From Shewanella sp. (lineage in GTDB: Bacteria > Pseudomonadota > Gammaproteobacteria > Enterobacterales > Shewanellaceae), in NCBI GenBank assembly GCA_004195335.1, contig SDWK01000595.1, positions 1-11,016 on the forward strand: a stretch of 11,016 nt of DNA. Reading direction: 5' to 3'. This document shows, piece after piece, positions 1 to 11,016 of the stretch; the first letter of the stretch is position 1, and each line of letters starts with the position of its first letter. The translations under genes and the position numbers were made by a program. The notes under the pieces are model-generated. The model worked only from the letters and a program-made list of their open reading frames with translations, did not search any database and was not told where the DNA came from.

Positions 1-2992
1 GGGTAACAAAGGTCGCAAATGCCATGCCGAAGAAGACGACGGTACCCACGGCGATGCGGCTCTCTGAACCTGCACCGGTCGACATAATCAGCGGTACCGC
101 GCCTATCAAGGTCGTAAATGCGGTCATCAGAATAGGACGTAATCTACGGGCCGATGCATCGATAATCGCCTGCTCCAGCTCTACCCCTCTGTCCCTCAGC
201 TGATTAGCAAATTCGACAATCAAGATACCATTCTTGGTGACCATACCGATCAACATGATCATGCCTATCTGACTGTAGATATTGAGGCCCTGGCCGGTTA
301 AGAATAACCCCAGGAATCCACCGAAGACTCCCATAGGCACGGTAAACATCACCACCATAGGGTTAATAAAGCTCTCGAACTGCGCCGCTAACACTAAGTA
401 TGCCACCAGCAAGGCCAAGCCAAACACCATCAGTACGCTACTCTGATTCTCTTTAAAATCTTTCGATTCACCGGTATAGCTGACCGAAATATCGCTGGGT
501 AAGATGTCTATTGCCGTTTCATCGAGAAAATCGAGCGCCTCCCCTAAGGTATAACCTTCACCTAAGTTAGCCTTCAGAGTGATCGATTTCTGCTTATTGG
601 TGTGACTGAGCTTATGGGCTGAAGCCACCTCTTCGATATGCGTTATCGAGTCTAAGGTGATTAACTCCCCCTTAGCCGAACGCATATAGATCTGACTGAG
701 ATCCGCCATGCTATTGAAACTGTTCTCATCGCCTCTGAGGTAGACATCGTATTCTTCGCCACGCTCGACAAAGGTAGTTTCACTGCGACCGCCTAACATC
801 ACCTCTAAGGTTTCGGACACCTCTGATACACTGATCCCAAGCTCAGCCGCACGCTCCCTATCGACACTCACCACCAGCTCTGGCGTGGTTTCGGCATAGT
901 CCAAATCGGCTCCTTCTAGCATAGGGCTGTTTATCGCCTCCTCTTGCAAAACTTCGGCCCATTTGAACAACTCTTTATAATCGGAGCCACCAATCACAAA
1001 CTGCACCGGCTCGCTGGATTGTCCTCTAAAACCAGGCAACATAGGTCGCACCATCACATCGGGGATCCCCTGCAGTGCTTTAGACACGATCCCCAACGCC
1101 TGCTGAGCATTAACGTCTCTATCTTCCCAATCTTCGAGCTGCATGATCACAAAGCCTGTCTGATCGCCGGCTCGTCCACCGAAGGCGGGGGCTTGCACGC
1201 TGAAAGACTTAATAACACCTTTACCTAACAAGGGCATAAGCCTCTGCTCTACGATATCCATATTGGCGGTCATACGGTTATAACTGGTTCCCTCCGCCCC
1301 CTTAACGAAGGCGAAGATAACGCCCCTGTCTTCCTGAGGCGCCAACTGAGAAGGAACGCTCTGCATCAACACACCACTGCCTATAATACAAAGCAGAATA
1401 ACCACCGGGGCGATAAAACGAAAACGTACGGCTTTGGCCACTAACACCCGATAAACACGTTCAAGTTGGCTAAATTTCCCTTCGATCCATAAGTTGAATC
1501 GATTAGGCTTGACGTTGGCCTTAAGCATCTTGCTCCCCAATACCGGCGTCAATGTCAGTGCGACTATCGATGAGAAGATCACCGACATAGCCAACATGAC
1601 GGAAAACTCGGTAAACAGGCGCCCCACCATTCCCTCCATAAACGAGATTGGCAGAAACACCATCACCAATACCGCTGTGGTTGCCACAACTGCGAAGCCC
1701 ACTTCACGGGTTCCCTTATATGCTGCCAGCAATGGTTCTTCGCCTTTCTCAATGTGATGAAAAATATTCTCCACCACCACTATCGCATCATCGACCACCA
1801 AGCCAATAGAGAGGATCAAGGCCATCAGGGTCAGAAGGTTAATGGAGAAGCCGAAGAAGTTGGCTGCGATAAAAGCTGAGATCAATGAAACCGGTACCGT
1901 TACCGCCGGAATAAGCGTCGCACGTGCCTGACCGATAAAGATATACAGGACTAATACCACGAGCCCACCCGTGATAAACAGCGTGTTATAGACCTCAGTG
2001 ATTGAACGGTCGATAAATACCGTTGAGTCATAATCGACCGCCAGCTGAGTTCCCTTTGGCAGGAATTGCTGGATCCGTTCAACCTCTTTATGAGCGGCTT
2101 TCGCCACCTCAAGCGGATTGGCATCGGACTGGGCGATAATCCCCAGACTTAAGTTAGGTACGCCGTCACTCTTAAAGGTCGAATTTTCATTTTCTGCACC
2201 GATAAATACCGAGGCCACCTCTTTAAGGTAAATGGGCGTGCCATCGCTGGCCGTTCGTACGACCAAATAGTCAAAGTCTTCAGGATGATAATAGAGACGT
2301 GCGGTTCTCACCGTCATCACAGTGGTGTCATTACGGACCTCACCACCCGGCGTTTCCACATTCTCAGTTTTCAAGCTAGCGATGATATCGGCAGTGGTCA
2401 CATTTCGCCCCGCCATCAACTCAGGCTTTAACTGAACATACATCACCTTATACAAACCACCGGAGATGCTCACCGAACTGACCCCGGTGATCAGATTAAA
2501 CCTGTCTTCCAATACCCGCTGGGCGTAATCGGTTAGCTGGGTTCGGTCCATCACAGAGGAGCTTAGATTGATATAAACCGAAGGCTCTCCAGAGCCATTA
2601 TCTTTCGAAACGATAGGGTCGTTCGCCTCATCGGGCAAACGGCGTTGGGCGCGGGCTACCGCATCACGAACGTCACTCACACCTTCGGTAAGATCCCAAT
2701 CCAGATCGAAGGTGATGGTAATACGTGACATACCATTTCGGGTCACAGAGGTGATCTCATCGATACCACTGATACCGGTAAGTTCATCTTCCAGTGACGT
2801 GGTGATCTGACTCTCCATGATGGTCGCCGAAGCACCTTCATAGGTCGTCATGACCGTGACTACCGGATTTTCAACGTCGGGCATTTCACGTACGGCTAAT
2901 TTTGAAAACGACACAGCGCCAAACACACAAAGAAGTAAACTTAAAACAATCGCGACAACGGGGCGCTTAACCGAGATATCTGAAATCAACAT
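1..2992 (-). CDS. RND (HAE1-type) efflux pump, inner-membrane permease subunit (3' end outside window)
   Basis: This is a proton-driven resistance-nodulation-division transporter of the inner membrane, which would export drugs or other amphiphiles through a tripartite complex. About 997 codons are present. Family members are usually 1010-1050 residues, so only the tail after the last membrane helix is missing at the left edge. Translation of the reverse strand starts MLISDISVKRPVVAIVL, the usual TM1 entry. A TM4 segment reads GLVVDDAIVVVEN, with the proton-relay aspartates at about residues 401 and 402. A TM10 segment reads MVTKNGILIVEF, with the conserved lysine near residue 920. RLRPILMTAF follows as expected. 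The ATG at 2992 shares one base with the TAA of the adaptor gene (TAATG), which implies translational coupling. No outer-membrane channel gene is visible, so a TolC-like protein encoded elsewhere is inferred. Substrate range cannot be read from sequence. Family assignment is very secure. Confidence 0.96.
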   Translation of the reverse strand, partial: MLISDISVKRPVVAIVLSLLLCVFGAVSFSKLAVREMPDVENPVVTVMTTYEGASATIMESQITTSLEDELTGISGIDEITSVTRNGMSRITITFDLDWDLTEGVSDVRDAVARAQRRLPDEANDPIVSKDNGSGEPSVYINLSSSVMDRTQLTDYAQRVLEDRFNLITGVSSVSISGGLYKVMYVQLKPELMAGRNVTTADIIASLKTENVETPGGEVRNDTTVMTVRTARLYYHPEDFDYLVVRTASDGTPIYLKEVASVFIGAENENSTFKSDGVPNLSLGIIAQSDANPLEVAKAAHKEVERIQQFLPKGTQLAVDYDSTVFIDRSITEVYNTLFITGGLVVLVLYIFIGQARATLIPAVTVPVSLISAFIAANFFGFSINLLTLMALILSIGLVVDDAIVVVENIFHHIEKGEEPLLAAYKGTREVGFAVVATTAVLVMVFLPISFMEGMVGRLFTEFSVMLAMSVIFSSIVALTLTPVLGSKMLKANVKPNRFNLWIEGKFSQLERVYRVLVAKAVRFRFIAPVVILLCIIGSGVLMQSVPSQLAPQEDRGVIFAFVKGAEGTSYNRMTANMDIVEQRLMPLLGKGVIKSFSVQAPAFGGRAGDQTGFVIMQLEDWEDRDVNAQQALGIVSKALQGIPDVMVRPMLPGFRGQSSEPVQFVIGGSDYKELFKWAEVLQEEAINSPMLEGADLDYAETTPELVVSVDRERAAELGISVSEVSETLEVMLGGRSETTFVERGEEYDVYLRGDENSFNSMADLSQIYMRSAKGELITLDSITHIEEVASAHKLSHTNKQKSITLKANLGEGYTLGEALDFLDETAIDILPSDISVSYTGESKDFKENQSSVLMVFGLALLVAYLVLAAQFESFINPMVVMFTVPMGVFGGFLGLFLTGQGLNIYSQIGMIMLIGMVTKNGILIVEFANQLRDRGVELEQAIIDASARRLRPILMTAFTTLIGAVPLIMSTGAGSESRIAVGTVVFFGMAFATFVT

Positions 2993-4107
2993 TAACTTCT
3001 GTCTCCCGCGCTCACGTTTAATTTTTCATCTGCTGATGCCAATTGTTCAGAAAGGTCGTTGACCTTAAGACCATCGCGCATATTGACCAGCCCCTGAATA
3101 ACAATGCGCTCTCCCACCGCGACCCCCTCAGAGATCATAACTTCATCCTGAATTCTTGCGCCAAGTGTTACTTGAGTTCGTTTGGCAAGATTGTCCGCGC
3201 CGATAACGTACACGAAGCGCTTGGTGCCAGAATACTCGATGGCTTGAACTGGGATAACGGGTTCCGATACTGCCGGGAAGCCTAGGCTAGCCGACATCAA
3301 CATGCCAGGCTTGAGCTTATGGCCTTGATTATGAGATTGATTTTCAAAGTTAACTCTAACCTTCAAGTTCAATGTTTCCTGATTGATACGCGTATCGATA
3401 GCCACTAACTCACCGGTAAAGAGATCACCAGGCCAGGCGCGATTCGTCGCCGTTACTGTCATTCCTACACTTAACATAGACAGGTAATTTTCCGGAACCT
3501 GAAGATCGAGTCTCATCAAAGACAGGTCATCGAGCGACAATAACTCACTTCCGGCGGTAACCATCTTACCTAAGCTGAAATCGAGTAAACCCGCGGTTCC
3601 AGAAAACGGGGCTTTGATATAATGAAAATCGAGTTCAGCTTGTGCAGCGGCGAGTCTGGCCGTTGCAATATCGACACTGGCCTTCTGTGCATCAATTTCG
3701 GTTTGGGTGATCGCACTTTGACTGATCAGTTTTTGAAACTCTTTAAGCTTACGTTTTTCATCGAAGAGATAGGCTTTCGCCTCGGCAACATTCGCCTGAG
3801 GCTTAGCATCTTCGAGTTGGATCAGCAGTTGTCCCGCTTTGATCTCTTGATTGGCCGTGACGTTAATGACTTTAATTTTTCCTGCCATTTCCGGGGCGAT
3901 AAATACCGATTTGTCCGCTGCCAACTTTCCTATTAAGGCAATTTTTTGAGAAAGCATATGTTGCTCGACTACGCCAGTGACCACTGGTACCACTCTTGGG
4001 GCGCGAGTAGATTTATCCCCAGGCTTCTTCGCCTGCGTGAAACTGCTAAATGAAGCAATAGCGGCGAATAACAAAATAATAGGGAGTAAGATCAGACGTT
4101 TTTTCAT
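2992..4107 (-). CDS. RND efflux periplasmic adaptor (membrane fusion protein)
   Basis: This adaptor would link the inner-membrane RND pump to an outer-membrane channel. The 371-residue protein opens with a basic MKKR and a hydrophobic stretch (residues 5-25) ending FTQA, a signal peptide or single N-terminal anchor. No lipobox cysteine is present. The two halves of the barrel-sandwich (lipoyl-like) domain lie at about 66-102 (IAPEMAGKI...) and 158-192 (IKAPFSGTAG...). They flank an alpha-helical hairpin at about 103-157 rich in Ala, Glu, Lys and Gln. A beta-barrel domain (195-280) and a membrane-proximal domain (281-345) follow. Length and order are normal for the HlyD/AcrA-type family. It is the first gene of the operon, and its stop codon overlaps the pump start. 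The ribosome binding site is weak (an AAAGAA stretch), but ATG 4107 precedes the expected signal peptide. Regulation may involve the CpxR-like box upstream. Confidence 0.95.
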   Translation of the reverse strand: MKKRLILLPIILLFAAIASFSSFTQAKKPGDKSTRAPRVVPVVTGVVEQHMLSQKIALIGKLAADKSVFIAPEMAGKIKVINVTANQEIKAGQLLIQLEDAKPQANVAEAKAYLFDEKRKLKEFQKLISQSAITQTEIDAQKASVDIATARLAAAQAELDFHYIKAPFSGTAGLLDFSLGKMVTAGSELLSLDDLSLMRLDLQVPENYLSMLSVGMTVTATNRAWPGDLFTGELVAIDTRINQETLNLKVRVNFENQSHNQGHKLKPGMLMSASLGFPAVSEPVIPVQAIEYSGTKRFVYVIGADNLAKRTQVTLGARIQDEVMISEGVAVGERIVIQGLVNMRDGLKVNDLSEQLASADEKLNVSAGDRS

Positions 4108-5044: not shown

Positions 5045-6055
5045 TTGAACAATCATTGTTTTGACCGACCAATCATCATCTTGTCAGCTCCGCGCTCAGG
5101 CAGCACCTTACTGTTCGAAATTCTCTCTAAGAGCCGTTCACTATGGACCATTGGAGGAGAGAGTCATGCCATTATAGAAGGACATAAACAGCTTAATATT
5201 ACCTCTAAAAACTTCGATTCTAATGCGCTCATCGACAACGATTGGACTGAAGAGCTGCATAGTTCCTTACGTCAGGGGTTTAAAGAGCAGTTACGTGATA
5301 GTAAGGATAACAAGTACACGGATGAGATTGGGCCTATCCGATTTTTAGAGAAAACACCTAAAAACAGCCTGCGTATCGACTTTCTCAATAAAATTTTCCC
5401 CGACGCTCTCTTTATCTATCTGATTAGAGAACCCAAGGAAAATATCAGTAGCATAATGCAAGCATGGAGATCGGGCCGCTTTCGAACCTATCCTATGCTT
5501 CCGGGATGGGGTGGGGATTGGTCGCTGTTACTGCCCCCAAACTGGCGTACGCTTAAAGGACAACCGCTTGGAAATGTTGCCGCATTCCAATGGCAACAGG
5601 CGAATGAATCAATTATGAATTCTCTGTCCAAGCTCCCCGATGAAAGATGGCATATGCTCTCTTACAGGGACCTCATCGACTCCCCTTATGAAACCGTCTC
5701 ATCCTTGACCGAGTTCTGCCAGATCCCATTCGATGATGAGTTAAAAAAAATCTGTGGCGACGCACTCCCCTATTCTAGATACACAGTTTCGCCCCCCGCG
5801 ACAAATAAGTGGCTAGAAAACTATCATGCAATAAAAAGCACATGGCCAGCTCTACAACCTTGCATAGATAAAATGAATAACCACTTAATTAAATTCAGGC
5901 TCGAACCGTTGGATAAAGAGTGGCCAGATAATCAAGCCCCTTCAGTTTCATTATCGAAGGAGGACGAGACTTCATTTGCAGGAGTATCCAGAAACTCTCC
6001 CTGTCCGTGTGGCTCACAGAAGCGATTCAAGCATTGCCATGGCCTAGCCCGTTAA
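5045..6055 (+). CDS. PAPS-dependent sulfotransferase with C-terminal SEC-C zinc-binding motif
   Basis: This 336-residue cytosolic enzyme would transfer sulfate from PAPS to a hydroxyl or amine acceptor that is not known. The 5'-phosphosulfate loop is SAPRSGSTLLFEIL (residues 14-27). A likely active-site strand reads FLEKTPKNS (100-108), and the 3'-phosphate motif lies in FIYLIREPKENISSI (123-137). This pattern fits the Sulfotransfer_3-type family. The last 20 residues form a SEC-C motif: SRNSPCPCG, then C331 and H332, giving Zn ligands C320, C322, C331 and H332 as at the end of SecA. A polar linker (about 290-314) joins the two parts. The start is TTG at 5045 because GAAGGTG at 5031-5037 lies seven bases upstream and an in-frame stop at 4991 leaves no ATG. 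The next gene carries the same tail, so the two products probably share a docking partner. SEC-C in SecA binds SecB and ribosomes; applying this here is inference. Confidence 0.9.
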   Translation: MNNHCFDRPIIILSAPRSGSTLLFEILSKSRSLWTIGGESHAIIEGHKQLNITSKNFDSNALIDNDWTEELHSSLRQGFKEQLRDSKDNKYTDEIGPIRFLEKTPKNSLRIDFLNKIFPDALFIYLIREPKENISSIMQAWRSGRFRTYPMLPGWGGDWSLLLPPNWRTLKGQPLGNVAAFQWQQANESIMNSLSKLPDERWHMLSYRDLIDSPYETVSSLTEFCQIPFDDELKKICGDALPYSRYTVSPPATNKWLENYHAIKSTWPALQPCIDKMNNHLIKFRLEPLDKEWPDNQAPSVSLSKEDETSFAGVSRNSPCPCGSQKRFKHCHGLAR

Positions 6056-6163
6056 TACTGATCTGTGAATTTTAGCCCGGTAATTTCACCCCGAAAATAC
6101 TGGCTCACGAGTATTGACCGAGAAACAGATAATAATAAGTCATCACCCATTAGGATGCCCGAA

Positions 6164-7267
6164 ATGCAGTTGGAAAATGAGTTTTACAAATTACCTTTAA
6201 CCTTCGACATTGAGCAATTAAGGAGAGAGGTTCTACGATTCGATGAAAGCGATTGGGCCCCTCACCATGAACATTTCGAAGGCAACTCTGCGATCCCATT
6301 AATTTCGGTGGGAGGCGGGTTTAATAATGAGTTCAAAGGTGAAATGAAGCAGACGCCGGCACTGGAGGCGAGTCCTTATATTCAACAGGTGATAGCTTCT
6401 TTCGGCGAAGTCGTCGGCCGCTCTAGGTTAATGCGGTTAGCGCCAGGCTGTGAAGTCCCACTGCATTGTGATATCAATTATCACTGGCATAAACGAGTCA
6501 GGATCCACATACCTATCGTCACCGAAGAAAACGTCATTTTTCATTGCGGCGACAAACAAACCCATATGGCGGCAGGAGATTGTTGGATTTTCGATTCATG
6601 GAAACATCATAAGGTTGTCAATAACAGTGACTGCCTTAGAGTACACCTGGTCATCGATATTATTGGTTCGAGTCGTTTCTGGTCTATGATCAGAGACCGT
6701 TCAATACCTTCAGGCTCGATATTGCCCCCTCCGACTCCCAGTCATTTTCTGGCATATTCTAATGACATGCTACCCGAATTAAAAACTGAAAATTTTAACT
6801 TCCCCATCATCATGACGCCGAGTGAAATTGAAAGTTTAACCAATGAGCTCGCTTCCCAAATCATGGAGTATTCATCCAATAATGGGGGATCAGCACAAGA
6901 GTTTATCCGAATCATTAAAGACTTCAGCTTAGACTGGCAAGAGTTATGGTCGCGATTTGCAGCGAATAAAGAAGGTTGGCCCTTCTATCACCAATTAAGA
7001 CAACGCACATTAGAGCGGGCTTCTGTTTTTGAAAAGACGGTTTTGGTCAATGGACAAACCTCGGCCATGAAAGTCTTAATTCATCTCATTGTCGCTCCCT
7101 CTATGAGCACTGAACTTGCCGAAGTTCGTCCTTCCACTGTGGTCGCTGGTGCTGAGAAAAGAACTGAAATAAATAGCCAAAAACCTGCAAAATCAATGAG
7201 CAGAAACAGCCCCTGCCACTGTGGTTCGGGTGAGAAGTTCAAACATTGTCATGGAAAAATGAGTTAA
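6164..7267 (+). CDS. Aspartyl/asparaginyl beta-hydroxylase-family Fe(II)/2-oxoglutarate dioxygenase with SEC-C tail
   Basis: This would hydroxylate an Asp/Asn or related residue of a protein or peptide, using Fe(II), O2 and 2-oxoglutarate. Numbered from ATG 6164 (367 residues), the double-stranded beta-helix core spans about 80-168. It has H101-x-D103, RIHIPI (113-118), FDSWKHHKVVNNS (143-155) and RVHLVID (159-165), as expected for the Asp_Arg_Hydrox family. Residues about 205-315 form an extra, mostly helical-looking region (LDWQELW, GWPFYHQLRQ) that I cannot assign. The C-terminus is a SEC-C motif (SRNSPCHCG...KHCHG) with C351, C353, C362 and H363, near-identical to that of the upstream sulfotransferase. 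ATG 6164 is preferred for its AGGA at 6152-6155, eight bases upstream. An in-frame GTG at 6065 would add 33 residues and leave nine bases after the preceding stop, but it has no ribosome site. The gene is in one operon with the sulfotransferase. Confidence 0.9.
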   Translation: MQLENEFYKLPLTFDIEQLRREVLRFDESDWAPHHEHFEGNSAIPLISVGGGFNNEFKGEMKQTPALEASPYIQQVIASFGEVVGRSRLMRLAPGCEVPLHCDINYHWHKRVRIHIPIVTEENVIFHCGDKQTHMAAGDCWIFDSWKHHKVVNNSDCLRVHLVIDIIGSSRFWSMIRDRSIPSGSILPPPTPSHFLAYSNDMLPELKTENFNFPIIMTPSEIESLTNELASQIMEYSSNNGGSAQEFIRIIKDFSLDWQELWSRFAANKEGWPFYHQLRQRTLERASVFEKTVLVNGQTSAMKVLIHLIVAPSMSTELAEVRPSTVVAGAEKRTEINSQKPAKSMSRNSPCHCGSGEKFKHCHGKMS

Positions 7268-7285
7268 TCATAGGCTCGATGCGTC

Positions 7286-7330
7286 ACTGCTGCGAAAAAT
7301 AGATTCTGACCTAAAATCGCAGCAGTTTTC
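7286..7330 (+). terminator. Intrinsic terminator of the sulfotransferase/hydroxylase operon
   Basis: ACTGCTGCGA (7286-7295) and TCGCAGCAGT (7317-7326) form a perfect 10-bp GC-rich stem with a 21-base loop, followed by TTTTC. It lies about 20 bp after the hydroxylase stop, between convergent genes. On the minus strand no T-run follows, so it would terminate mainly the plus-strand operon. Confidence 0.7.
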
Positions 7331-7341
7331 TCGGTAGTAAG

Positions 7342-8994
7342 TTAAGACAAAAATTCAGATTTTACCTTTTCAGCAATACCCGCGAGTTGTTGAAAACTCT
7401 CTCCCATAAAAGCCTGATACTTTTGACTCTGTCCGATGGCTTTAGGATTCATTGGTTGTCTGACTTGACTCGCACTAGGGGTTAACACGGTTCTTTTCGA
7501 TTGATAAAATGTCAGACACGACTCTTCAAACGATAGTCCACAATAATTGAGCAGCTTAGCTATCTCCTCATCGGGCGACTGAACTAGACGTTCAAAGCTA
7601 AGATGATAGATATCTTCTGAATATATCTTGGTCCAATGCTGCATCAAGTCAACATAGCTCTGCCAGTAAACGACGATGTTATCGAGGGAGTAAGAGTAAT
7701 CATGCCCGCGGCTAAAGTGCTGTTTAAACACCCCCATGGCATTGTCATTAGCATCCCGAATGACATTGACGATCTTGGCATCGGGAAACAGAGTTTTAAT
7801 TAGCCCGATATGCAAAAAATTATTTGGATTTTTATCGATAAAATACTCAGGAGTACTTTCAAAGTATTGCGCAACCTGACCTAGATATTGCAATCTTAAA
7901 CTGTTAGCCTTTTCGTCAGATAAGTTCGACAGCCATTTAGCATAGCCACCCGACATATCTAGCTCCAAAGCCAAGCGTTCCATGTAAGGCAGCTCATCCG
8001 TTGCCTCGACCAAAGAGTGGCTTGCTAATATTTGCTCGGTGAGCGTAGTTCCCGATCTTGGCATCCCCACGATAAAAATGGGCGTTTGTTGAGAAGCAGA
8101 CGACTGACTCTTATCTTTTTTAACAGGAGTACACTCGAGTAAAGAATCAATAATATGTCTAAAAGGACCCGATTTAAAAGGACGAAGCTCCTGCATCAGT
8201 CGGTTAGCTTCACTTATTGAATAGAAAGACTGCTCATTATCATCTTGTTGCTCGAAGACACGGCTCTGAGCAAACAAAAATAGTGAACGACTCGCATTAG
8301 AATATTGGGTTGACTCGAGATTGTTTTTTAGTGATTTGGCATCGATATCGGTAAATGAATAATTTTTAAGATCGGCAAGGCTCCAATAACCTACAGCCTG
8401 GTGGCTAGGACCCGCTTTTATGTAACTGTGATAATACTTTGCCGCTTTTTCTGTATCGCCTTTGGCTTTATAGACATGGCCCAAATTGAGCAGAGCAGCC
8501 GGCTCACTGGAATCATGGTCTATACAGAAGTGAAATGCCTTCTCCGCCTCATCCATCAAGCCTATCTTGCTCGCCGTGATCCCAAGCTTAAACCTGTTTT
8601 CGTAATTTTCTGGCATGAGTTCGACGAGAGTGACCAGATATTGATATGCAGCAAAAAAATCTTCTCGCTTTTCAGCGATGAAGAGTAGTCCCGAAATGGC
8701 CCCAAAAGAATTAGGCTTTAGCGATATGACAAGGGAGAATACTTTATATGCCTCTTTAAGATCGTTACTCTTTACCGCAAGATGACCTAAAATCATTAAT
8801 GCATCTATTTGCTCCGGGTTACGACGCAGCACCTTTCTTGCGTACATACCGGCCGATGAAAACTTCTTCTCAGAATAAAAGACCTTTGCATCATTGAGGT
8901 AACGCTCTTCTCTGTTCAATTCCATTTCCCTTTTCTTATTATTATCTTCATGGTCTATTCTAATACCAATCGGTATATAGCTATCCATGACCAT
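7342..8994 (-). CDS. TPR-repeat protein with C-terminal sulfotransferase (tyrosylprotein sulfotransferase-like) domain
   Basis: The 550-residue product combines a TPR superhelix with a sulfotransferase and would sulfate a protein or peptide bound through its TPRs. Repeats run from about residue 32 to 195, seen in segments such as EQIDALMILGHLAVKSND and PAALLNLGHVYKAKGDTEKA. The PAPS loop is IFIVGMPRSGTTLTEQIL (306-323). E334 in EATDELP, K388 in DKNP and IVNVIRDANDNAMG (408-421, 3'-phosphate site) follow in order. The C-terminal VLTPSASQVRQPMN (503-516) is a hallmark of bacterial TPR-sulfotransferases. No signal peptide is seen, so it is probably cytosolic. ATG 8994 has no clear ribosome site. 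An in-frame ATG at 8925 (527 residues) follows AAAAGGG, although only two bases lie between, and is a reasonable alternative start. The gene runs convergently to the hydroxylase/sulfotransferase pair and divergently from the NYN gene, sharing its promoter region. The specific acceptor is unknown. Confidence 0.92.
   Translation of the reverse strand: MVMDSYIPIGIRIDHEDNNKKREMELNREERYLNDAKVFYSEKKFSSAGMYARKVLRRNPEQIDALMILGHLAVKSNDLKEAYKVFSLVISLKPNSFGAISGLLFIAEKREDFFAAYQYLVTLVELMPENYENRFKLGITASKIGLMDEAEKAFHFCIDHDSSEPAALLNLGHVYKAKGDTEKAAKYYHSYIKAGPSHQAVGYWSLADLKNYSFTDIDAKSLKNNLESTQYSNASRSLFLFAQSRVFEQQDDNEQSFYSISEANRLMQELRPFKSGPFRHIIDSLLECTPVKKDKSQSSASQQTPIFIVGMPRSGTTLTEQILASHSLVEATDELPYMERLALELDMSGGYAKWLSNLSDEKANSLRLQYLGQVAQYFESTPEYFIDKNPNNFLHIGLIKTLFPDAKIVNVIRDANDNAMGVFKQHFSRGHDYSYSLDNIVVYWQSYVDLMQHWTKIYSEDIYHLSFERLVQSPDEEIAKLLNYCGLSFEESCLTFYQSKRTVLTPSASQVRQPMNPKAIGQSQKYQAFMGESFQQLAGIAEKVKSEFLS
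8963..8976. promoter_or_regulatory. ATACC-AATC-GGTAT near-palindrome at the 5' end of the TPR-sulfotransferase gene
   Basis: The 14-bp dyad has five perfect pairs on each side and an imperfect centre. It lies inside the first 10 codons if ATG 8994 is used, but in the untranslated leader if ATG 8925 is used. It could be an operator or a fragment of a dispersed repeat; a genome-wide count would decide. Confidence 0.25.
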
Positions 8995-9150: not shown

Positions 9151-9630
9151 ATGACGCCTAAAAAGATTGCCATATTTGTCGATGTTCAAAATATCTATTA
9201 CACCTGCCGTCAAGCCTTCGGTCGACAATTCAACTATAGAAAACTATGGCAACATATCAGTCATGAGGGAGATATATCCTCAGCAACGGCCTATGCGATT
9301 CATCGCGGTGATGATGGCCAGTTAAAGTTTCAGGATGCACTCAAACATATCGGTTTCGATGTTAAATTGAAGCCCTTTATTCAGAGAAGTGATGGCAGTG
9401 CGAAAGGTGATTGGGATGTGGGTATCACCATAGATATCATGGAAGCAGCCAGCGAAGTCGATAGTATTATTTTACTCTCTGGTGACGGTGACTTCTCTCT
9501 TCTGATGCTGAAAATCTATCAAAAGTATGGAGTCGATACCCAAGTCTATGGCGTCCCAACATTGACGGCGAAATCACTCATCGACTCAGCTTGTCAATAC
9601 CATGAAATTGATGATGCTCTATTGTTGTAG
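9151..9630 (+). CDS. NYN-domain (LabA/DUF88-like) PIN-fold protein, putative RNase
   Basis: The 159-residue protein is a single NYN domain, a PIN-like fold whose acidic residues bind metal and often cleave RNA. FVDVQNIYY opens the domain with D11 and N14. KGDWDVGITIDIM carries D87, D89 and D95, and LLSGDGDFSLL carries D112 and D114. All expected acidic positions are present, so it is probably an active enzyme; the RNA target is unknown. Length is normal for the short stand-alone proteobacterial form. ATG 9151 begins directly before the first strand (MTPKKIAIFV), and its ribosome site is weak (CAGAGA). It is divergent from the TPR-sulfotransferase with a shared control region, though a functional link is only a guess. 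In cyanobacteria the related LabA acts in clock output, which does not transfer here. Confidence 0.9.
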   Translation: MTPKKIAIFVDVQNIYYTCRQAFGRQFNYRKLWQHISHEGDISSATAYAIHRGDDGQLKFQDALKHIGFDVKLKPFIQRSDGSAKGDWDVGITIDIMEAASEVDSIILLSGDGDFSLLMLKIYQKYGVDTQVYGVPTLTAKSLIDSACQYHEIDDALLL

Positions 9631-10527: not shown

Positions 10528-11016
10528 TTAATAGCGCCACTCTTTAGCAAAATCATACCTGAAGCCAACCACCCAAGATGAGAAGTCATCGAAGTAATCC
10601 ATATCACGATATAAATACTCAATGTGGAAACGTAGATTATCATCAGGCGACCACTCCAGTGTGGTGTTGTAGCCATCGAACTTTCTACTGATCAATTGCC
10701 CATAACCATCATCAAACTCGAAGTAACCTAATTTTACCTTGAACTGCTCCCCCAAAGGATAAGCCGCTGCCAAGTCAATCGTTTGGCCATCACGGTCTTG
10801 AGATATTAGATCCCTTTTATAGGTTCGCTCCTGATAGGCTCCAGCAAGATACAAGCCATTATCAAAACCATGAGCCAATGAAGCGCCCCACACTTCATCT
10901 TCACCGGTGGTTATCTCAGAATCCATACTATCCTCAATCAGATAACTGATAGCCCCATGAAACCCACCATGATCGAAACCTACCCCTAAGTTGACTAAAT
11001 CGGCATCATCACTACC
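10528..11016 (-). CDS. Gram-negative outer-membrane porin (C-terminal part, 5' end outside window)
   Basis: The last 162 residues of a beta-barrel porin are present, and the reading frame stays open to the right edge. Alternating polar and aromatic residues form successive strands, as in LYLAGAYQERTYK, VKLGYFEFDDGY, FHIEYLYRDMDYF and WVVGFRYDF. The protein ends in an aromatic residue (EWRY), as is usual for a BamA recognition signal. The pattern matches trimeric general porins (Porin_4/OmpC-like) of about 300-380 residues, so roughly half is missing. It would let small hydrophilic solutes cross the outer membrane. The internal Met at 10926 is not the start, because coding continues upstream in the same frame. 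Pore selectivity cannot be judged. Confidence 0.88.
   Translation of the reverse strand, partial: GSDDADLVNLGVGFDHGGFHGAISYLIEDSMDSEITTGEDEVWGASLAHGFDNGLYLAGAYQERTYKRDLISQDRDGQTIDLAAAYPLGEQFKVKLGYFEFDDGYGQLISRKFDGYNTTLEWSPDDNLRFHIEYLYRDMDYFDDFSSWVVGFRYDFAKEWRY

Follow-up and report, generated by a model that had tools for sequence, protein, structure and literature searches.

In an 11,016-nucleotide stretch of Shewanella sp. DNA (contig SDWK01000595.1; the whole stretch is called the window here), positions 5045-8994 are filled by three genes, as seen from open reading frames (ORFs) and Pfam domains. They encode a sulfotransferase (ST), a hydroxylase-family protein (HYD) and a convergent second sulfotransferase with tetratricopeptide repeats (TPR-ST), and both ST and HYD end in a SEC-C tail of the SecA type. 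We propose that the three genes are a portable module whose products work in the cytosol, hydroxylating and sulfating outer-membrane or surface proteins ahead of export, and that the SEC-C tails dock the enzymes on SecB or ribosomes. We give this proposal about an even chance of being right. It builds on direct observations of the gene content, its conservation, gene fusions, the co-occurrence of the tails and the general neighbourhood of TPR-STs.

The cassette and its enzymes

5045-6055, forward strand: ST, Sulfotransfer_3 sulfotransferase with C-terminal SEC-C (residues 316-333); TTG start, 336 aa
5990-6043, forward strand: SEC-C tail of ST, SRNSPCPCGSQKRFKHCHG
6164-7267 (favoured ATG start), forward strand: HYD, PF05118 Asp/Asn/Arg hydroxylase-family enzyme with SEC-C tail
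7202-7258, forward strand: SEC-C tail of HYD, SRNSPCHCGSGEKFKHCHG
7342-8994, reverse strand: TPR-ST, N-terminal TPRs and Sulfotransfer_3 domain, kin to protein-tyrosine sulfotransferases; 550 aa; convergent to HYD

An earlier note on this DNA had read ST and HYD as ending in SEC-C opposite a convergent TPR-ST, and the ORFs and Pfam matches above cut-off bear this out. ST matches Sulfotransfer_3 (E 1.4e-27) and SEC-C (33.6 bits, cut-off 20.4); HYD matches Asp_Arg_Hydrox PF05118 (E 3.8e-16, 59.8 bits, cut-off 22.6) and SEC-C (31.9 bits, cut-off 20.4); TPR-ST matches Sulfotransfer_3 (E 2.6e-40) and several TPR models. The longest HYD ORF spans 6065-7267 with a GTG start (400 aa). The translation start is probably the ATG at 6164 rather than 6065, because 19/19 aligned homologues begin there and AGGA lies just upstream. 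The window genome (5.93 Mb, 1060 contigs) has two Sulfotransfer_3 matches and one PF05118 match at E <= 0.001, all within this 4 kb. The closest named proteins to ST and HYD are from Shewanella sediminis. A signal sequence is not evident in the cassette enzymes when they are read by eye, without a predictor.

The phosphosulfate-binding motif PRSGST of ST begins at residue 16, and P16, R17, G19 and S20 are invariant in 22/22 aligned sequences. H134, D136, R146, H148, H182 and R192 of HYD are invariant in 20/20 aligned sequences; carrying the assignment over from AspH, we take them to be the iron and 2-oxoglutarate ligands. With the ST motif and the HYD ligand residues kept, both look like working enzymes. 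HYD has the PF05118 domain and the ligand residues of a putative aspartyl/asparaginyl beta-hydroxylase. It shares with AspH and the bacterial PF05118 hydroxylases a domain match over the curated cut-off and the invariant HxD, RxH and later His, and differs from AspH by about 150 additional C-terminal residues and by the SEC-C tail. Human AspH is an enzyme of the endoplasmic reticulum lumen with TPRs of its own. Some PF05118 members are thought to act on lipids or free amino acids.

TPR-ST matches the protein-tyrosine sulfotransferases TPST1/2 (E ~1e-8, best stretch residues 299-498), with R313, G315, T317, L318 and E334 invariant in 26/26 aligned sequences. It shares with TPST1/2 the sulfotransferase domain, a PRSGT-type phosphosulfate motif and the invariant Glu 334 soon after it. 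This kinship and this motif make it a candidate protein-tyrosine sulfotransferase, and we do not claim membership. Unlike TPST, a membrane enzyme of the Golgi lumen, TPR-ST carries TPRs and has no evident signal sequence.

SEC-C tails and conservation of the module

Both tails match PF02810 over its cut-off and contain the CXCX8C(H/C) ligand motif, and they share this motif and its RN and Lys flanks with the C-terminal metal-binding domain of SecA, YecA/AscA and YchJ. The difference is that SEC-C here sits on modifying enzymes and not on a motor or chaperone. The CXCX8CH spacing of both tails is the SecA spacing described in PMC6620043. The SecA peptide chain of 1ozb, which is the complex of the metal-binding domain with SecB (PMC6620043), is matched by the HYD tail (E 9e-7) and the ST tail (E 6e-6). 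The SecA domain is needed for SecB binding in E. coli and contacts ribosomes near uL23 (PMC6620043). YecA and YchJ have nearly identical SEC-C domains, unreviewed work suggests that a YecA-SecB interaction is possible, and further SEC-C proteins may be accessory Sec components (PMC8076867). Given these matches and the work on SecA and YecA, docking on SecB or ribosomes would be the natural reading of SEC-C.

The conservation of the module was followed by scanning GTDB species genomes with a 20-sequence HYD alignment, and the best 80 of 97 loci were used. Counted over the gammaproteobacterial loci plus the window, 38 loci have ST next to HYD, and a convergent TPR-ST lies within 1 kb in 34 of these. 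The ST-HYD gaps range from -72 to 100 bp in 37 pairs, with no conserved small peptide gene seen inside the module, and the gap from HYD to TPR-ST is at most 180 bp in 31/34. Read from the locus maps, the cassette is flanked by about ten different genomic settings: the efflux-pump neighbourhood of the window's relatives, several further ones within Shewanella, one each in Thalassotalea and Alteromonadaceae, one common to a Colwellia metagenome-assembled genome (MAG) and Litorilituus, and single cases. The cassette is sporadic, with HYD in 2/17 other Shewanella genomes. In 247 genomes of the window's order, with at most 8 first-look candidates scored per search in the genomes listed, strong ST and strong HYD matches (E < 1e-95) fall in the identical four genomes; three belong to the window's genus, so these are not four independent events. 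Weaker matches do not overlap, with HYD in three more genomes (E 6e-28 to 4e-21) and ST in three others (E 1e-45 to 2e-43).

The enzymes also occur as fusions. HYD-ST fusions were found in L009, L097, L074 and L055 by Pfam, in L056 and L075 by tblastn within one ORF, and in L008 by ORF length only; the hosts are Asticcacaulis, Brevundimonas, a Caulobacterales MAG, Diaphorobacter and one genome of the window's order. A TPR-ST-ST fusion occurs in Caulobacter vibrioides OR37 (L150), with a short PF05118-like gene nearby. Fusion of this sort is good evidence for a common pathway. The Diaphorobacter fusion (L009, 7380-12987) has a divergent IPTL-CTERM surface protein on one side and a DUF4915 (TIGR03032) gene on the other.

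SEC-C is present on both enzymes in 30, on neither in 6 and on ST only in 1 of the 37 scorable ST-HYD pairs; the 38th pair, L050, has a truncated ST and was left out. The two tail motifs within one locus have a mean identity of 76% (30 pairs). On a HYD tree built with the tail excluded, each SEC-C trait changes three times, with two or three concordant and no opposite changes, numbers too few for significance. No alphaproteobacterial locus has SEC-C on either ST or HYD. Seven SEC-C matches were found in the window genome, five of them outside the cassette: a DUF1186 protein, a 117-aa protein without another Pfam domain, a weak match without identity, and two bearers that we take to be SecA and a YchJ-like protein. 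Because the five are of these few kinds, SEC-C is not scattered over many enzymes in this genome. The earlier note had set the co-occurrence of the cassette genes across genomes as a check beforehand, and the neighbourhood proved conserved across genera and settings (34/38 pairs). It had named SEC-C tails on random enzymes as the finding that would speak against it, and the few kinds of bearer and the tails present or absent together in 36/37 pairs go the other way. Its idea of a two-enzyme protein-modification cassette with a common partner gains from the fusions and the conserved unit, and loses in that SEC-C is dispensable in some lineages.

Genes beside the sulfotransferases and the cassette

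Neighbours of TPR-STs were surveyed in Pseudomonadota, where 154 of 299 genomes have a Sulfotransfer_3 match at E <= 1e-20. One TPR-ST locus per genus was taken for 54 genera, in each case the best-scoring PF13469 locus among the matches listed and not a random one. In a few cases a contig end cuts the stretch; g166 and g193 (match near a contig end), g139 and g152 were left out. The controls were 36 regions located 60 kb away on the same contigs in 36 of the 54 genomes. With a hidden Markov model (HMM), a TonB-dependent receptor was found within 4 kb of the TPR-ST in 24/54 genera and in 3/36 controls (Fisher p 1.6e-4). For the 36 genomes with both regions the counts are 23 and 3, with discordant pairs 20:0. 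At E <= 1e-40 the counts are 22 TPR-ST loci and no controls. A stricter HMM, trained on unlinked receptors only, gave 11/54 and 0/36 (p 0.0023). Of the 24 receptors (23 measured), 22 stand no more than 140 bp from the ST frame and one stands at 2,980 bp; 13 of the 22 close ones are upstream and 5 downstream, all on the strand of the ST, and 4 are on the opposite strand. The Pfam Plug domain was present in 28/28 receptors scanned (23 of the 24 from the survey and five from cassette-bearing genomes). Eight further TPR-STs were inspected in six cassette-bearing genomes, leaving out two weaker Sulfotransfer_3 matches: five touch a receptor, one, a fusion, has one gene between, and two do neither.

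Receptors are not the only surface proteins at these loci. Ten neighbours picked by eye at HMM-negative loci proved by Pfam to be two porins, four Ig/Calx-beta repeat proteins, one outer-membrane efflux protein, one receptor missed by the HMM, one DUF748 protein and one without a match; the neighbour Pfam tables cover 25 families, and the control figure for receptors (3/36) rests on the HMM. Nine named plasmid loci, one per genus, were taken from 25 of 47 records. Asticcacaulis was left out as already covered and Lelliottia as resembling Enterobacter, and the Novosphingobium and Pseudoalteromonas rows were not top-ranked. Plasmid TPR-STs have receptors on both sides in Novosphingobium, upstream in Pseudoalteromonas and at some 2 kb in Komagataeibacter; Comamonas has a giant cadherin-domain protein and TolC nearby; autotransporters adjoin in Pacificitalea and Thalassospira and are separated by one gene in Enterobacter sp. 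638.

Long TPR-STs (about 860-900 aa; L178, L180, L198, L207, L299) adjoin large Ig, Calx-beta or cadherin repeat proteins. The order in Comamonas endophytica is giant cadherin-domain protein, TPR-ST, TolC and ABC transporter. On the Enterobacter sp. 638 plasmid (L302, 3000-8539), TPR-ST, a glycosyltransferase of family 8 and the autotransporter stand in a row, as if both enzymes served the autotransporter.

The loci of HYD relatives were examined for the same receptors. The typical order in the alphaproteobacterial operon is TonB-dependent receptor, Sulfotransfer_2 protein, short PF05118 protein, TPR-ST and HYD, and the receptor of L061 matches TIGR01782 with 635 bits (cut-off 310). ORF clustering placed a receptor in 28/36 alphaproteobacterial loci, and 30/36 after tblastn recovered two masked ones. 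Counting L055 and L091, where no core gene was called and tblastn finds no receptor, the figure is 30/38. In five of the six misses the contig breaks off no more than about 2.2 kb upstream of HYD. Among gammaproteobacterial loci 9/41 have a receptor. Seven Alteromonadaceae loci have the cassette flanked by a receptor-methyltransferase pair, confirmed by Pfam in one locus, and by TonB-type genes; those on the far side are presumably DUF3450, ExbB, ExbD and TonB. Six of the seven have an additional TPR gene, and the one in L036 contains a 2OG-Fe(II) oxygenase domain as well. The receptor-methyltransferase-TonB order occurs without an adjoining cassette in six Shewanella genomes, two of which bear the cassette elsewhere.

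Phosphorus-type genes lie near 29/39 alphaproteobacterial loci (L055-L093 and the L008 flanks), a count without a control comparison. We take most of their names to mean phosphonate, phosphatase or phospholipase-like functions, and they may hint at what the alphaproteobacterial receptors import.

Other genes of the window were also recorded. A large efflux-pump-like permease ORF and a HlyD-type membrane-fusion protein (2-4107, reverse strand) lie upstream of the cassette and are common to several Shewanella relatives. An NYN-domain protein (9151-9630, forward strand; Pfam E 9e-41, PADLOC LabA-like NYN E 5e-12) has homologues adjoining the cassette in six related loci. A Porin_4 gene (10528-11016, reverse strand) is cut by the contig end about 1.5 kb past TPR-ST, with two genes between; porins directly adjoin TPR-STs in L177 and L209. 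Elsewhere in the window genome (L104, 4755-7012, forward strand), a small protein made of GKCGEG-type repeats, probably with a signal sequence, is followed by two further genes, presumably a DUF692 protein and its partner. A PADLOC scan of five proteins gave only partial SEC-C, TPR and NYN matches and no system core, and an anti-phage defence system was rejected on this ground. A terminator scan gave 3 matches against a mean of 4.3 in shuffles, so no excess.

Proposed mechanism, alternatives and meaning

We infer the class of client, the order of reactions, the acceptor residues and the role of SEC-C as follows. A client precursor, still unfolded in the cytosol, would be captured by a TPR or SEC-C arm. 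HYD would add a hydroxyl to one of its side chains, as a PF05118 enzyme most likely at the beta-carbon of Asp or Asn. ST and TPR-ST would then move sulfate from 3'-phosphoadenosine-5'-phosphosulfate (PAPS) onto hydroxyls of the same client, with tyrosine, by kinship, the most likely acceptor of TPR-ST. After hydroxylation and then sulfation the client would be handed over to SecA. Modification would precede export, because PAPS, 2-oxoglutarate and Fe(II) are cytosolic and the enzymes have no evident signal sequence. The clients would be outer-membrane or surface proteins, foremost TonB-dependent receptors. TPR-STs often adjoin genes for such exported proteins, and an export-bound client is therefore favoured; outer-membrane proteins are classical SecB clients. 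The SEC-C tails would be address tags that copy SecA docking on SecB or the ribosome exit site, and they would let enzymes without a neighbouring client gene reach export-bound proteins in trans. Where SEC-C is missing, the enzymes lie in the operon of the receptor or are fused. The sulfate may alter ligand binding or shield the client from phage and bacteriocins. A broader version, tentative and in our view somewhat unlikely, is a general and so far unrecognised bacterial pathway in which TPR-STs sulfate outer-membrane and surface proteins (receptors, porins, autotransporters and giant adhesins) in the cytosol ahead of export. HYD and ST of the gammaproteobacterial cassette would then have borrowed the SecA tail to intercept precursors held by SecB or ribosomes, and the hydroxyl that HYD makes would be sulfated on the same protein, with or without subsequent elimination.

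Several observations weigh against the proposal. The closest match of ST in the Protein Data Bank (PDB) is CurM (4gbm, E 1.8e-13), a small-molecule sulfotransferase and a better match than TPST, and the best PDB enzyme match of the HYD profile is L-proline cis-4-hydroxylase. SEC-C is absent from the alphaproteobacterial and some gammaproteobacterial versions, so it is not essential to the system. ORF clustering found no TonB-dependent receptor near any Shewanella or Thalassotalea cassette, including the window's, and in Alteromonadaceae the cassette may simply have inserted into a pre-existing receptor-methyltransferase-TonB operon. The more sensitive receptor HMM behind the figure of 24/54 was partly trained on six ST-linked receptors. 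By HMM, 30/54 TPR-ST loci have no receptor, one being later recovered by Pfam. Two of these 30 have no ST ORF. Many of their neighbours are ordinary, for example glucanotransferase, RNase PH and pyruvate kinase (47 scanned; 8/55 neighbour ORFs were left out of the alignment as likely antisense). Two of the nine plasmid loci (Hirschia, Methylovirgula) have no surface-protein gene nearby.

The search for the client in the window genome adds to these points. The receptor type beside Alteromonadales TPR-STs has no match there at E <= 1e-15, and the receptor adjacent to the Alteromonadaceae cassette has no close orthologue (best 37%). The two linked receptor types were rejected as the client in this genome, being absent or distant there. 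Both other cassette-bearing Shewanella genomes have an orthologue of the Alteromonadaceae-type receptor, but it does not track the cassette, because it also occurs (63-64%) in 4/15 cassette-less Shewanella genomes. Linked (23) and unlinked (22) TIGR01782 receptors differ at 264 columns, and an acceptor site cannot be named because the linked receptors form a single closely related group. For the second receptor type, YxRG is present in 13/18 aligned linked plugs and 0/5 unlinked ones, a small count made by eye and confounded by kinship; two linked rows are misaligned, one lacks the anchor, and rows U_L250 and U_L251 are actually ST-linked. As an acceptor hint this motif is a lead only. ST-linked receptors of one type, L174, L182-L184, L190 and L191 among them, have a plug variant in common (GPG, YxRG, YLDE, GASSQAG) that none of the five unlinked receptors compared shows. 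The earlier note had imagined a nascent or export-bound client and a conserved small or secreted protein nearby. The first idea is helped by the outer-membrane and surface genes that often adjoin TPR-STs and hurt by the missing receptors at Shewanella and Thalassotalea cassettes; for the second, no conserved small peptide gene was seen within the module.

A serious alternative is that the enzymes tailor a ribosomal peptide or small natural product, such as a metallophore or a lasso-type peptide, which the neighbouring TonB-dependent receptors import without being modified. CurM, the nearest PDB relative of ST, fits such a role; as a polyketide synthase domain it acts on a carrier-bound substrate, whereas ST is a stand-alone protein paired with HYD. 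In some methanobactin operons a TonB-dependent transporter accompanies a sulfotransferase thought to act on Thr (PMC3621798). A table for Pontixanthobacter has near-consecutive clusters under the names lasso B2, nucleotidyltransferase, sulfotransferase, aspartyl beta-hydroxylase, sulfotransferase, PqqD and asparagine synthase (PMC10040529), yet this lasso-like case also points to peptidic substrates. The module leaves little space for a precursor gene given its short gaps, although the gene may be elsewhere. No biosynthetic core gene was found in the eight window proteins scanned, and no MbnA or MbnB domain of the methanobactin type was seen in these eight by Pfam, a scan that took in neither short ORFs nor other parts of the genome. 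Porins, autotransporters and large adhesins also adjoin TPR-STs, and the SecA-type tails would be left unexplained. We consider this alternative unlikely. It is very doubtful, too, that receptors and enzymes are merely neighbours in shared variable, horizontally moving regions without a direct functional link. The sporadic cassette and its many settings would agree with such a by-product. The tight spacing of 22/24 receptors (<=140 bp) in varied arrangements, the low control count (3/36) and the fact that the receptor linked in one genome has its best matches in two further genomes among their own linked receptors all speak for a real association.

The tails might instead be metal or stability modules that say nothing about the client, for example iron-binding ones, as would suit an Fe(II) oxygenase. 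Tail-less homologues occur in alphaproteobacteria and in Colwellia and Pseudoalteromonas relatives, and iron has been mentioned as a possible physiological ligand for the SecA motif (PMC6620043). We hold this to be quite unlikely, as ST carries the tail too, the tails are jointly present or absent in 36/37 pairs, and both match the SecA peptide of the SecB complex. The family of ST needs no iron. A lipid substrate, hydroxylated and then sulfated, is highly improbable. PF05118 includes the lipid hydroxylases LpxO and OlsC, and HYD has a sub-threshold OlsC match (E 0.095), but its 11.9 bits stand against a cut-off of 450. The catalytic part of HYD matches, besides L-proline cis-4-hydroxylase, 'beta-hydroxylase' and 'proline oxidase' entries in the PDB, and TPR-ST has TPRs and kinship to TPST.

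The proposed sulfation of exported proteins has a bacterial likeness in RaxST-RaxX of Xanthomonas, where an exported peptide is sulfated (PMC4216712, PMC6637879). RaxST acts on a dedicated small peptide encoded next door; a RaxX-like gene was not noticed here, and no targeted search was made for one. Databases already label the single genes as sulfotransferase, zinc chelation protein SecC and aspartyl/asparaginyl beta-hydroxylase. Among the matches listed, in a search outside which most subscription papers lie, no title or abstract was found on TPR-sulfotransferases beside TonB-dependent receptors or on SEC-C attached to sulfotransferases or hydroxylases. The parts are of known kinds, and their combination and the neighbourhood rule appear new.

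Should the proposal be right, sulfation would stand next to glycosylation among the modifications that bacterial surface proteins receive before export. The receptors concerned control how many Gram-negatives take up nutrients, how sensitive they are to phage and how drugs enter them, and SEC-C would be an address tag that can be transferred to unrelated enzymes and takes them to export-bound chains. By the neighbourhood rule, many TPR-sulfotransferases acquire a named candidate client, so that the substrate question can be tested gene by gene.

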